From positions 620,001 to 684,000 of the forward strand of contig JACPYL010000025.1 in assembly GCA_016196065.1 (NCBI GenBank): a stretch of 64,000 bases of DNA. The letters are read 5' to 3'. The stretch is from Acidobacteriota bacterium (lineage in GTDB: Bacteria; Acidobacteriota; Terriglobia; Terriglobales; Acidobacteriaceae). Under the pieces are notes generated by a model. That model had not been told where the DNA came from and ran no database searches. It worked only from the letters and a program-made list of their open reading frames with translations. Positions within the stretch are counted from its first letter, which is position 1; every line of letters begins with the position of its first letter. This document shows positions 9,388-53,118 of this stretch, in pieces. A program made the position numbers and the translations under genes.

Positions 9388-10254
9388 ATGGGTAACACCT
9401 TTAAAACCGCATTTCTTTTGACCGCAATGACGCTGTTGCTGATGTTTGCGGGCCGTGCTTTTGGCGGCCAACGCGGCATGCTGATGGCGCTGATCTTTGC
9501 CGCCGTCATGAATTTTGTTTCGTACTTCTTCTCCGACAAGATTGCACTGGCGATGTACCGGGCGCAGCCGATCTCGCGCGAGCAATTGCCACGCGTCTAC
9601 AACATTGTGGAACGGCTGGCGCAAAAAGTCGGCTTGCCGATGCCCAAGGTCTACTTGATCCCGAACGATTCTCCGAACGCTTTCGCCACGGGACGCAATC
9701 CGAATCATGCGTCGGTCGCGGTCACGCAAGGAATCCTCGGATTGCTCAGCGATGACGAACTGGAAGGCGTCCTGGCACACGAACTGGGGCACGTTCGGAA
9801 TCGTGACATCCTGATCAGTTCGGTCGCCGCCACCATCGCGGGCGCAATCACCTACCTTGCCCACATCGCGCAGTGGGGAATGATTTTTGGCGGTTACGGC
9901 GGGGATCGCAACGAACGCCGCGGAGGTGGAGGCCTGGCCGGGCTATTGATGATCTTCCTGGCTCCGCTCGCTGCCAGCCTGATTCAGCTCGCCGTCTCAC
10001 GCTCGCGTGAGTATTCCGCTGACGAGACTGGTGCGCATTGGACGGGCAATCCGTACGCTCTGGCGAGCGCCCTGGCCAAGATCGACGCCTACTCTCGCCG
10101 CATGCCGCTGACAGCGACCGCGTCGACCGCGCACCTGTTCATCATCGCCCCATTCCTGGGTGGAGTGAATTTTGGCAGCCTGTTCTCGACCCATCCTCCG
10201 ACCGCCAAGCGCATCGAGCGGCTGACGGGGCGGCCAGCGGAATTTACTCAGTAA
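9388..10254 (+). CDS. htpX: Zinc metalloprotease HtpX
   Basis: Inner-membrane M48 protease that degrades damaged membrane proteins alongside FtsH. 288 aa, normal length. Two N-terminal membrane helices (residues about 4-21 and 30-48) are followed by the cytoplasmic zinc site HELGH (about residues 131-135) and the downstream helix with SREYSADETGA, whose Glu is the third zinc ligand. Two more hydrophobic segments lie between. The C-terminal part FSTHPPTAKRIERL is the standard family ending. A heptamer inverted repeat begins two bases after the stop. Confidence 0.96.
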   Translation: MGNTFKTAFLLTAMTLLLMFAGRAFGGQRGMLMALIFAAVMNFVSYFFSDKIALAMYRAQPISREQLPRVYNIVERLAQKVGLPMPKVYLIPNDSPNAFATGRNPNHASVAVTQGILGLLSDDELEGVLAHELGHVRNRDILISSVAATIAGAITYLAHIAQWGMIFGGYGGDRNERRGGGGLAGLLMIFLAPLAASLIQLAVSRSREYSADETGAHWTGNPYALASALAKIDAYSRRMPLTATASTAHLFIIAPFLGGVNFGSLFSTHPPTAKRIERLTGRPAEFTQ

Positions 10255-10255
10255 G

Positions 10256-10384
10256 AGTTCTCAGTTCCCAGTTCCCAGTTCTCGGTTCTCGGTTCTCAGT
10301 GAAAACCACTCTACGGTGGGTCTCGTCGAAGCCGCCGGCAGAGGGCCTTTACTGAGAACCGAGAACCGGGGACCGAGAACTGGT
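10256..10384. repeat. Heptamer inverted-repeat element, copy A
   Basis: Left arm 10256-10300 consists of six TTCTCAG-type 7-mers in tandem (variants TTCCCAG and TTCTCGG). Right arm 10351-10384 has about four and a half complementary units (ACTGAGA, ACCGAGA, ACCGGGG, ACCGAGA). The 50-base loop ends in CCTTTACTG, similar to other copies. It lies between htpX and the MoxR gene and could fold into a long imperfect hairpin. Confidence 0.85.
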
Positions 10385-12904: not shown

Positions 12905-13017
12905 GCTCTTCGTGTTCCTTGCGGCGAAGGTCCCAAAGAAAATCCTGAGTGAATTGGCCTTCCTCGTGACTGCAACCTCAGCTTGCCGCGGCAATGATTT
13001 ATTCTGATATGTACCCT

Positions 13018-13045
13018 GAGACCTAAGACCTAACACCTGAGACCT
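13018..13045. repeat. Tandem heptamer array GAGACCT x4 before ychF
   Basis: Four 7-base units in tandem: GAGACCT, AAGACCT, AACACCT, GAGACCT. The array ends 6 bp before the ychF ATG and so occupies the usual ribosome-binding region; no clear Shine-Dalgarno sequence is seen apart from its purines. Confidence 0.65.
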
Positions 13046-13051
13046 GATTTC

Positions 13052-14142: not shown

Positions 14143-14178
14143 GAGTTCCCAGTTCCCGATTCTCAATTCTCAGTTCTT
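14143..14178. repeat. Heptamer repeat, copy B (single arm)
   Basis: Five TTCCCAG/TTCTCAG-type units in tandem with no matching opposite arm nearby. It starts right after the ychF stop and runs to 5 bp before the ATG of the ZIP gene, so it replaces the normal leader of that gene. Confidence 0.75.
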
Positions 14179-14182
14179 GGTC

Positions 14183-14986
14183 ATGTGGGAATGGCTGGCA
14201 GCGGCCCACCACAATTGGAATCCTCGCCTACACCTGTTAGGCTTGCCAATCCGCATGCATCCGATTACCACCAGTTTGTTGCTGGGCATGACCGCGGCGA
14301 TGGCCAATGTGTTTGGCGGGACTATCATTGTCCAGCGCAATTGGGAGCGGCGGTATCTGAAATATTTTATCGCTCTGGGCGCCGGATTCATGCTGGCAAC
14401 GGCGCTGCTGGAAGTGGTCCCGGCGAGCCTGGAATTGCGTGGCAGGTCCGGAGCGCTGCTCATCCTGGCTGGATATCTGATCATTCATTTTTTCGAGCAC
14501 ACGCTCTCGCCGCACTTTCATTTTGGAGAAGAAGTTCACAGCGACGAATTTGTGCATGCGCATAAGAGCTATTCCGTGCTGGTAGGACTGACCATTCACA
14601 CATTCTTTGACGGAATCGCAATCGCGTCCGGCTTCCTCGTTTCCAATTGGCTGGGCTGGATCATCTTCCTCGCGGTCTTCCTGCACAAGATTCCGGAAGG
14701 CTTCACGGTCGCGTCCGTAATGCTGGCCAGTGGACGAAGCCGCGCCACAGCCTGGTGGGCCTCCGCACTTCTGGGCGCCGCGACTATGGCCGGAGTTTTC
14801 GTAATGGCCATCTTTCGACATCAGGTCAGCGCAGGACTTCCACTCGCTGCTGGCGTCACAATCTACGTCGCCGCGTCGGACTTGATTCCAGAGGTAAACA
14901 AAGAGCCGGGAGTGAAGATGGCTCTGGTCGTGTTCTTAGGCGTAGGGATGATGTTTCTGCTGGATTACTTTTTCCACGTTCACTAA
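14183..14986 (+). CDS. ZIP-family divalent metal transporter
   Basis: A 267-aa membrane protein. ATG at 14183 is used, as the TTG at 14177 lies inside the repeat. Eight hydrophobic helices are expected. The paired histidine motifs in helices 4 and 5 are visible as GLTIHTFFDGIAIASG and FLHKIPEGFTVASV (HxxPEG), the metal-binding core of ZIP transporters. A histidine-rich loop between helices 3 and 4 (EHTLSPHFHFGEEVHSDEFVHAHK) is also typical. The likely role is import of zinc or related metals into the cytoplasm; specificity cannot be read. Its 3' end meets the left arm of the element at 14989. Confidence 0.9.
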   Translation: MWEWLAAAHHNWNPRLHLLGLPIRMHPITTSLLLGMTAAMANVFGGTIIVQRNWERRYLKYFIALGAGFMLATALLEVVPASLELRGRSGALLILAGYLIIHFFEHTLSPHFHFGEEVHSDEFVHAHKSYSVLVGLTIHTFFDGIAIASGFLVSNWLGWIIFLAVFLHKIPEGFTVASVMLASGRSRATAWWASALLGAATMAGVFVMAIFRHQVSAGLPLAAGVTIYVAASDLIPEVNKEPGVKMALVVFLGVGMMFLLDYFFHVH

Positions 14987-14988
14987 GT

Positions 14989-15516
14989 AGTTCTCAGTTC
15001 CCGATTCTCAGTTCTCAGTAAAACCGAACATTTTCGATGTGCGCAGGTCACAGCGTGCCGCGCCCAAAAAAGCCATCGTTACAGTTCGGAGGCAACATGG
15101 GGCGGTCTTATCGCGACCTGATCGCTTGGCAGAAAGCAATGAAGCTTGTAACGGGAATTTATTCTTCGACCCACCGTTTTCCGAGCGAAGAGCGGTTCGG
15201 GATTACAAATCAACTAAGGCGCGCAGCGGTTTCTGTACCCAGCAACATCGCGGAAGGGCAGGCTCGATTTTCGCAGAAGGAATTTCACCACTTCCTCAGT
15301 CAAGCGCGTGGTTCGCTGGTGGAAATTGAAACGCAACTGATGATTGCGAGAGACCTGAAGTACCTTCATCCCGGCAAAACGGAAGCTCTGCTTGCCTTAA
15401 CCGAAGAACTCGGCAAAATCCTGAACGGACTGATCGCCTCCATCAAGAACCGGGCCGCCTGAACGCCGCAAGGTTTCCACTGAGAACTGAGAACCGGGAA
15501 CTGAGAACTGCTTCTA
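14989..15516. mobile_element. Putative IVS-like element: heptamer inverted repeats around a four-helix-bundle gene (copy C)
   Basis: Left arm 14989-15019 (AGTTCTCAGTTCCCGATTCT and on) and right arm 15479-15510 (ACTGAGAACTGAGAACCGGG and on) are complementary heptamer arrays. They are extended inward by CAGTAAAACC on the left and GGTTTCCACTG on the right, which also pair partly. Between them lies a single gene of the S23/IVP four-helix-bundle family (15097-15462). Copies A, D and E of the same repeat have only 26-50-base loops. No transposase is present. That this is a mobile or once-mobile cassette is inference from structure and copy number. Confidence 0.45.
15097..15462 (+). CDS. Four-helix-bundle protein (23S rRNA intervening-sequence / S23 family)
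   Basis: A 121-aa protein. ATG at 15097 is chosen because CGGAGGCAAC lies directly upstream; the open frame from 15037 is longer but starts next to the repeat. The family pattern is complete: YRDLIAWQKAMKLVTGIY, then THRFPSEERFGITNQLRRAA, VSVPSNIAEGQAR, EFHHFLSQARGSLVEIETQL and IARDLKYL. Members are basic helical bundles first described as ORFs in intervening sequences of 23S rRNA genes; the related bAvd protein serves diversity-generating retroelements. No rRNA gene or reverse transcriptase is nearby. It is enclosed by inverted heptamer repeats. Confidence 0.9.
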   Translation: MGRSYRDLIAWQKAMKLVTGIYSSTHRFPSEERFGITNQLRRAAVSVPSNIAEGQARFSQKEFHHFLSQARGSLVEIETQLMIARDLKYLHPGKTEALLALTEELGKILNGLIASIKNRAA

Positions 15517-36378: not shown

Positions 36379-36442
36379 GGTCCCGGAGGGACCGCTGACA
36401 ATAGCCCGCCAGGTTTCCCCAGCGCTAAAGCGCTGGGCTATT
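36379..36442. repeat. Palindromic repeat cluster upstream of purB
   Basis: GGTCCC-GGA-GGGACC (36379-36393); AATAGCCC (36400-36407) pairing with GGGCTATT (36435-36442) around an inner palindrome CCCAGCGC-TAAA-GCGCTGGG (36418-36437). Similar TAAA-looped palindromes occur at 46874-46925 and 49506-49690. Confidence 0.75.
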
Positions 36443-36553
36443 ATCGCTCGCCCTCCGGGGCTTGGATTTGCCCGCCTCGGCACCTGCCGCCTTACAGCAC
36501 ATCAGCATCTCGGTGATTTACAATCTTGAGTTCCCTTTTCGGAGAGACCCACT

Positions 36554-43100: not shown

Positions 43101-43286
43101 TCATAATTATCCGTAACTCTTGGTTGAGAAAGCAAGTAGCAAGCCAGTGGAAACTGTGGAGAACGAGCCTGAAATAGCACAGAAGTGGTAGAGAAATACG
43201 ACAACGGACTGGCATTCGACGCCCCGGAAAAGAAAAACGGTTCGTGCCCAAGAGACGACCCTGCTACCCTGACAAGTCGCGTAACC

Positions 43287-43361
43287 CAGTTCTCAGTTCT
43301 CAGCGAAGGCGCCTGGCGAACTAGGGTTTACTGAGAACTGAGAACCGGGAACTGAGAACTG
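43287..43361. repeat. Heptamer inverted-repeat element, copy D
   Basis: Left arm 43287-43303 (CAGTTCTCAGTTCTCAG), a 26-base loop ending GGGTTTACTG, right arm 43330-43361 with the units ACTGAGA, ACTGAGA, ACCGGGA, ACTGAGA. The right arm is identical, base for base over 32 bases, to those of copies C and E. It lies 19 bp upstream of the oxidoreductase start. Confidence 0.85.
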
Positions 43362-50913: not shown

Positions 50914-51004
50914 CAGTTCTCGGTTCTCAGTTCTCAGTTCTCAGTTTCAATTGCATTCGAAATAGAGGTTTTACTGAGAACTGAGAACCGGGAACTGAGA
51001 ACTG
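50914..51004. repeat. Heptamer inverted-repeat element, copy E
   Basis: Left arm 50914-50945 (four TTCTCAG/TTCTCGG units), a 27-base loop ending GGTTTTACTG, right arm 50973-51004 identical to those of copies C and D. Loop left side has TTTCAATTGCATTCG. Confidence 0.85.
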
Positions 51005-53088: not shown

Positions 53089-53118
53089 TGAGAACTGAGA
53101 ACTGGGAACTGAGAACTG
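53089..53118. repeat. Heptamer repeat, copy F (single arm)
   Basis: Tandem units TGAGA, ACTGAGA, ACTGGGA, ACTGAGA, ACTG ending 3 bp from the amidase stop codon (minus strand). No matching left arm in this 165-bp gap. Confidence 0.75.

Follow-up and report, generated by a model that had tools for sequence, protein, structure and literature searches.

The window analysed here, a stretch of 64,000 nucleotides from an Acidobacteriota bacterium, contains at 14985-15513 a single gene enclosed between inverted arrays of heptamers, which together take up the interval separating a ZIP transporter gene from a convergent gene for a VWA protein. The left (5') arm (14985-15019, + strand) comprises about 4.4 units of AGTTCTC/AGTTCCC, and the right (3') arm lies at 15479-15513 (+ strand). 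Both were recovered by repeat search and by TRF: the inverted-repeat search gave arms of 35 nt each, 94% complementary and separated by 459 nt, and TRF gave period-7 arrays at 14989-15019 and 15479-15510. RNA folding of 14985-15513 predicted that the ends are paired. The gene between the arms (15097-15462, + strand, 121 aa) belongs to the S23/23S_rRNA_IVP family of four-helix-bundle proteins, exceeding the curated cut-offs of both Pfam PF05635 (E 5.1e-39, 133.2 bits, cut-off 33.8) and NCBIfam TIGR02436 (E 3.5e-37, 126.9 bits, cut-off 24). The structure named in the original prediction, a gene of this family between complementary heptamer arms, is therefore real. The start at 15097 is the one chosen there, and a further in-frame ATG is present at 15037. 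The leader between the arm and the ATG (15020-15096, + strand) begins with the 15 bases AAAACCGAACATTTT.

An orthologous element occupies the same site in one relative (G015). Comparison of the two S23 genes gave pS 0.667, pN 0.09 and dN/dS ~0.06, showing that the protein is under purifying selection. The left arm and first leader bases differ by a single base and the 15-base leader start is unchanged, while in the right arm the units follow a different order. The motif AAACCGA is also found 3' of the arm in two other S23 loci (L001 and L003). Judged from these alignments, the gene and left arm of the window element look constrained. The protein is related in sequence to the solved structures 2gsc (1.7e-24) and, weakly, 2rld; XCC0516, an S23 relative, is a pentamer of four-helix bundles. 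In Pfam at E 0.001 the window gene matched only PF05635 and bAvd, and in NCBIfam it matched four-helix and Avd models. It is homologous to Avd of diversity-generating retroelements (PHROG 3206, E 2.5e-13), but falls under the equivalog cut-off of NF033474 (39.8 of 80 bits); PF05635 is regarded as Avd-like in excerpts of PMC10053308. PADLOC returned a single weak match (E 0.0069), and phage records searched for S23 gave no match at E 1e-5.

Excerpts of PMC4990558 describe a 428-nt intervening sequence (IVS) in a 23S rRNA gene that encodes S23p, has a 28-bp stem, and carries three tandem GACAGAT heptamers upstream of its ORF, in strain-dependent copy number. The S23p-encoding IVS is there reported to be excised by RNase III and is termed selfish, and the protein family is described as lacking a known function. 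The element at 14985-15513 likewise carries its S23 ORF within a loop closed by a long stem, with heptamers before the ORF, but it lies between ZIP transporter and VWA-protein genes instead of inside a 23S rRNA gene; Rfam at gathering score found no rRNA in the window and nothing at the element. The S23 elements described below also differ from the 23S IVS in having arrays on both sides at most loci and many non-coding copies. The same excerpts contain no generalization of the IVS design beyond rRNA. We consider the window element most likely to be a free-standing, IVS-related mobile element.

To score arms, the left flank was aligned locally against the reverse-complemented right flank, with a threshold score of 28. 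Seven S23 genes were found in this genome (eight match rows, one gene being split in two), and by eye all seven lie between inverted 7-8-bp arrays (arm scores 28-62). Their units are AGTTCTC, AGGTGTC, a TTAGTG type, TTTCTTG, a TTCGTC type, TAGCTAC and an 8-mer. A broken S23 gene at G000:C8:408852-409168 (L006/L007) retains both arms. For the genus, 36 S23 loci were taken out of a larger number of matches; two were halves of one broken gene and two (L020, L025) were too short for the arm test, and 31 of the 33 tested loci reached 28. Ribosomal S6 genes from the same genomes never did so (0/23, maximum 25), and 14 ZIP-gene loci had a median score of 21.5, the two at 28-29 being real heptamer arrays.

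A multi-phylum set was obtained by a scan of genome contigs, as the best 80 of 586 confirmed stretches, and spans Acidobacteria, Bacteroidetes, Planctomycetes, Chloroflexi, Proteobacteria, Firmicutes, candidate phyla and others. After omission of three loci with flanks too short for the test, 65 of 77 of these best-scoring loci reached 28 (median 43) and 12 fell below it. The same threshold was reached by 3.0% of 5852 oriented mismatched flank pairs (median 18) and by 4 of the 59 ORFs tested in the neighbourhood of 46 loci. These two controls and the S6 genes replaced an unoriented mismatched-pair control, which was dropped because some loci were homologous and its upper tail was meaningless; 0/34 loci beat its 99% point. 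Array length differed among the multi-phylum loci. Very long arrays were seen in L091 (about 22 perfect units per arm) and L152 (about 30).

S23 genes of other genomes thus lie between inverted arms far more often than the controls do, which answers one of the checks suggested at the outset. The original prediction had also staked itself on finding this particular repeat around S23 genes of other genomes, and it stands, because seven other loci (L011, L012, L014, L036, L088, L089, L091) carry the window unit or its AGTTCCC form. Its picture of a free-standing stem-loop-plus-ORF design was supported but proved too narrow: S23 lineages bear different units, so the window's repeat is not special, and the rule is the architecture and not one repeat. 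Among the open PMC papers listed, no title, abstract opening or excerpt connected S23 genes outside rRNA with heptamer arrays.

The arrays have a characteristic period and a fixed polarity. Pooling gave 109 loci, 106 of them distinct (L099, L115 and L120 duplicate L017, L032 and L035), and 96 of the 109 had arms; among lags 6-10 the best was 7 in 82, 8 in 13 and 9 in one. When 69 distinct units were aligned in phase, the 5' arm shared the form N-T-Y-A-G-K-K (A 66%, G 89%), with a polarity information of 2.74 bits against null maxima of 1.99 (60 position permutations) and 2.10 (40 random strand flips). Outside this set of units, the 5' arm fitted the NNYAGKK strand better in 9/9 plasmid loci with arms and in 21/22 hairpins of this genome. 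The GACAGAT heptamer of the published IVS favours the NNYAGKK strand (profile score 3.7, complement 1.4), a preference that stays within chance for a single heptamer (95% point for random ones, 4.3). Protein distance and unit distance were correlated (Mantel r 0.26, 0/2000 permutations), also without pairs under 0.3 distance (r 0.15, 9/2000), and not significantly beyond 0.45 distance, where proteins are less than ~55% identical (208/2000). Units therefore follow the protein lineage among nearer relatives.

Further heptamer copies are present in the window. A non-coding hairpin of AGTTCTC units occupies 10256-10383, with an M48 peptidase gene (PF01435, stop at 10254), which we take to be htpX-like, on one side and a MoxR-type AAA ATPase gene (10389-, PF07726) on the other. 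Other non-coding heptamer hairpins are found at ~43283-43361 and 50914-51004, and single arrays at 13015-13047 (TRF), 14144-14174 (+ strand, 94% identical to the left arm) and 53089-53118 (- strand). The arrays at 10256, 14144 and 14985 start at most 7 nt from a stop codon. An Acido-Lenti-1 RNA was identified in the window at 36418-36462 (Rfam, 39.3 bits). In G001, just past the ZIP stop codon (L042), a longer-unit array, ACCGCCGAGACGCCGAGAGCGCC, lies beside heptamers.

Across the whole genome, a 17-nt pattern of the window repeat (up to 2 mismatches) matched 122 times on the forward and 101 times on the reverse strand, and its reversed control 0 and 4 times. A sample of 864 kb of this genome (the window plus 800 kb) contained 85 period-7 arrays, compared with 3 in a Markov shuffle; other periods were also raised (real/shuffle), namely 14, a multiple of 7 (59/2), 12 (29/1), 9 (22/2), 6 (18/3) and 15 (15/3). 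This sample held 22 inverted pairs, 20 of them with loops of 15-95 nt. By eye, 17 pairs (one being the window element) carry units of the resident S23 genes, and the units of the other five belong to none of these genes. After masking of the two S23 elements that fall within the sample, the seven resident units had 20, 10, 9, 8, 7, 2 and 2 further copies. Zero copies were found for 44 of 66 units from the multi-phylum contig set, and some of the units with copies came from acidobacterial loci sharing this genome's units. For other members of the genus, 18 of 24 units also had copies in the 864 kb, which together with the five non-resident pairs means that a unit match is not exclusive.

The site of the hairpin at 10256-10383 was readable from flank matches in 23 of 24 genus genomes. 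Six relatives have a full-length S23 element there, in the htpX orientation in G018, G009, G023 and G020 and reversed in G016 and G010; L014 and L036 are at the same site, with the element reversed. G018, G020 and G016 have the S23 gene in a single frame; in G009, G023 and G010 it is split over two, which may be decay or assembly error. G002 has S23 pieces apart within a 3.2-kb interval, with one arm present. Short AGTTCTC hairpins or remnants occupy the site in this genome (G000), G015, G001, G013 and G022, and hairpins with other units in G011 and G019. No AGTTCTC array was found at the site in G021, G014, G017 and G005 (G014 has another short inverted pair), and other sequence is present in G003, G004, G006, G007 and G012, with heptamer arrays in G007. 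The element is therefore present, absent or inverted at exactly the same site in different relatives.

These comparisons bear on the proposal that the gene-less copies are deleted, non-coding relatives of the element. It holds well for 10256-10383 (taken as copy A of that proposal), where six relatives have the full-length S23 element, but less well for 50914-51004. At the latter site, at least one such array was seen by eye in 14 of 18 relatives in which both flanks were found, and the hairpin looks inherited and decaying in place; it is therefore old, and not all hairpins are fresh deletion products. This genome and G015 have only a hairpin at the htpX site and an S23 element nearly 5 kb away between ZIP and VWA, and G018, with S23 at the htpX site, has no S23 in the 420 bases downstream of ZIP. 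This pattern suggests movement, though the gene neighbouring ZIP differs in most relatives, so there is no clean empty site for the ZIP element.

Plasmids of cyanobacteria provided filled and empty sites. Regions from 12 of 31 records were examined, and nine of the 12 S23 loci have arms scoring at least 28. Of the others, L213 has a right arm that overlaps the gene end, L219 shows a clear array only on its left side, and no array is seen in L212 within 110 bases on each side. In a homologous operon of Nostoc plasmids, the junction B|C contains an S23 element in L213, L227 and L228, is empty (3-nt gap) in L211, L222, L223, L224 and L225, and holds another gene in L226. The junction C|D contains a different S23 element in L211 only, compared with 0-4 nt in eight others. 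Similarly, an S23 gene lies between cas10 and cmr3 in Picosynechococcus PCC 7003, where PCC 7002 has 12 nt, and between two ribonucleotide-reductase genes in Nostoc edaphicum, where Calothrix NIES-4105 has 40 nt. Comparison of relatives, suggested at the outset, thus yielded both states, at the 10256-10383 site and in the Nostoc plasmids. In L208, L215 and L216, S23 genes lie within CRISPR-Cas operons of cyanobacterial plasmids; an excerpt of PMC10910872 names 23S rRNA IVP in a figure legend concerning CRISPR-linked proteins. A decayed S23 remnant with a left array follows a TrbI/VirB10 gene in Nostoc sp. TCL26-01 (L229).

Non-coding hairpins have also inserted into coding sequence in these plasmids. 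In L227, a ~182-bp non-coding hairpin, tied to S23 by the unit it has in common with the S23 element and by this only, lies inside the S23 gene, which is uninterrupted in L213 and L228. A related hairpin splits rarA in Calothrix brevissima; neither plasmid 2 of that strain nor Nostoc carneum has an interruption there. Each of the two insertions is situated 5' of ATAA, and neither shows a duplication longer than 1 nt. Matching places for the non-coding hairpin, some of them partial, number 101 across 43 plasmid records, and seven of seven aligned copies are followed by GATAA. For gene-bearing elements, target duplication is ambiguous (TTCTA is present on both sides in L228), and the ATAA target is not common to them. 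At junction A|B, L222 and L228 contain non-coding hairpins with matching outer arms and different loops, and the hairpin loop therefore seems exchangeable.

A second gene family was found in the same arrangement. Of 27 loci of GxxExxY genes in this genus (PF13366, a PDDEXK_3 family; L058-L087, with this genome's copy as L072), 24 score at least 28. Their best lags are mostly 8-10 bp (21/24), as in the CGCAGAGAT and ACGGAGAC types, and a few arms lack a clear period or have the other polarity. One genome (G120, L282-L307) has about 30 near-identical GxxExxY fragments. These were ruled out as proof of GxxExxY mobility: the copies compared share a repeat of more than 1 kb with its own right end, and most of the G120 copies examined seem to ride in another element.

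The S23 elements resemble several known systems in part. REP/REPIN sequences are short palindromic non-coding copies whose cognate RAYT gene is flanked by its own repeat type. The S23 elements share both traits, but have a 7-bp tandem unit and a small four-helix bundle that matched no transposase family, and the window gene matched no Y1 (HUH) tyrosine transposase in the Pfam and NCBIfam searches. MITEs are short elements that code for nothing, occur in many copies and have a gene-bearing relative, and here too non-coding, multi-copy forms accompany a gene-bearing relative, the heptamer unit being what is shared, and insertions are clean; unlike MITEs, the two clean S23-unit hairpin events show no target-site duplication longer than 1 nt, and no transposase is known for the S23 elements. 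IS200/IS605 elements insert beside a short fixed sequence. The two non-coding hairpin events, beside ATAA and without duplication, recall this, but the pattern was not seen for gene-bearing elements. Bacterial heptanucleotide repeats are described in excerpts of PMC4679880 and PMC4692102 (Xanthomonas GGGAATC, Nostoc GGGGATT, Beggiatoaceae TAACTGA and Calothrix heptamers), where heptamers are over-represented or the commonest class of longer repeats in many bacteria and slippage is proposed as their origin. Like the S23 arrays they are 7-bp units, intergenic and scattered; in these excerpts they are treated as repeats or G-quadruplex formers, with no link to S23.

With moderate confidence, we propose that 14985-15513 is one of a widespread group of compact mobile elements, in which the S23 protein reads the hairpin of its own unit and moves it together with a recruited enzyme. 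The inverted 7-bp arrays would fold as a long hairpin with the S23 gene in its loop, and the protein would bind its own unit, with each array offering a row of predicted binding sites; the form bound may be single-stranded DNA, a cruciform or RNA. That S23 recognises the hairpin of its own unit and favours its upkeep and movement is the simplest reading of a constrained protein, a unit that tends to follow the lineage, and a fixed polarity. We know of no catalytic residue in S23 for DNA joining. S23 and the recruited enzyme would insert the hairpin elsewhere, mostly in short intergenic gaps, and in this way S23 may take part in the gain and loss of elements at exact sites. Gene-less copies would persist as hairpins, movable in trans by supplied protein. 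In transcripts, by analogy with rRNA IVSs, the hairpin would probably be cut by RNase III, and we propose that this cutting would make insertions inside operons and rRNA tolerable. Counted against this proposal are the 12/77 and 3/12 loci below 28, the loss of the link between unit and protein below ~55% identity, the non-exclusive match of units to resident genes, the non-coding nature of the two clean insertions, the S23 genes in two frames in 3/6 full-length elements, and the site at 50914-51004, which looks inherited and decaying in place.

Some of the same observations could be accounted for in other ways. The hairpins may be moved by another enzyme, such as a single-strand Y1/IS200-IS605 or RAYT-like transposase, with S23 as a passenger or binding partner only. 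The two clean non-coding insertions beside ATAA without target duplication, and the GATAA following all seven aligned copies, which is reminiscent of IS200/IS605, are what such an enzyme would leave; the occurrence of S23 between such arms in many phyla, with differing units, and the recurrence of the resident S23 units within the genome would then go unexplained, and we regard this account as unlikely. S23 may instead be a regulatory gene whose protein binds heptamer hairpins, both in its own transcript and in others, and sets RNA stability or termination; ordinary recombination would then spread the hairpins, and S23 elements would be gained only occasionally. Purifying selection on S23, the conserved left arm, the window arrays starting next to stop codons, and the persistence of arrays at the 50914-51004 site in most relatives all agree with regulation, but it does not sit well with a different unit for each gene, with gain, loss and inversion at exact sites, or with hairpin insertion into coding sequence. 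We therefore judge regulation as the main role to be quite improbable. Least credible is passive slippage, in which polymerase slippage and hairpin-primed copying make the heptamers and S23 genes merely tolerate them. The published over-representation of heptamers, for which slippage was proposed in excerpts of PMC4679880 and PMC4692102, and the differences in array length among loci are in keeping with it. Paired inverted arrays of fixed polarity around one gene family, compared with 0/23 S6 genes and 4/59 neighbouring ORFs, already disfavour it, and we give it very little weight.

On the reading we favour, that of mobile elements whose S23 protein reads its own hairpin, a wider generalization may be drawn, which we hold tentatively as somewhat short of an even chance. 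S23 elements may form a bacteria-wide mobile class with a mechanism of its own, in which a pentamer of four-helix bundles reads a hairpin of private heptamers, with the NNYAGKK strand leading, and no target duplication is made. The excess of 7-bp tandem repeats in bacterial genomes would then be largely their footprint, rRNA IVSs would be members that landed in rRNA, and GxxExxY genes, with their flanking arrays of 8-10-bp units, would be a parallel class.

S23 genes inside CRISPR operons (L208, L215, L216) call for caution about a defence role assigned by association, since association scores may mistake S23 for defence genes. More broadly, the findings give context and testable roles to S23, a family without a described function according to excerpts of PMC4990558. 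They would offer a candidate origin for the excess of 7-bp repeats in bacterial genomes, for which an explanation has been lacking, and what had been an oddity of rRNA genes would become a bacteria-wide class of elements.
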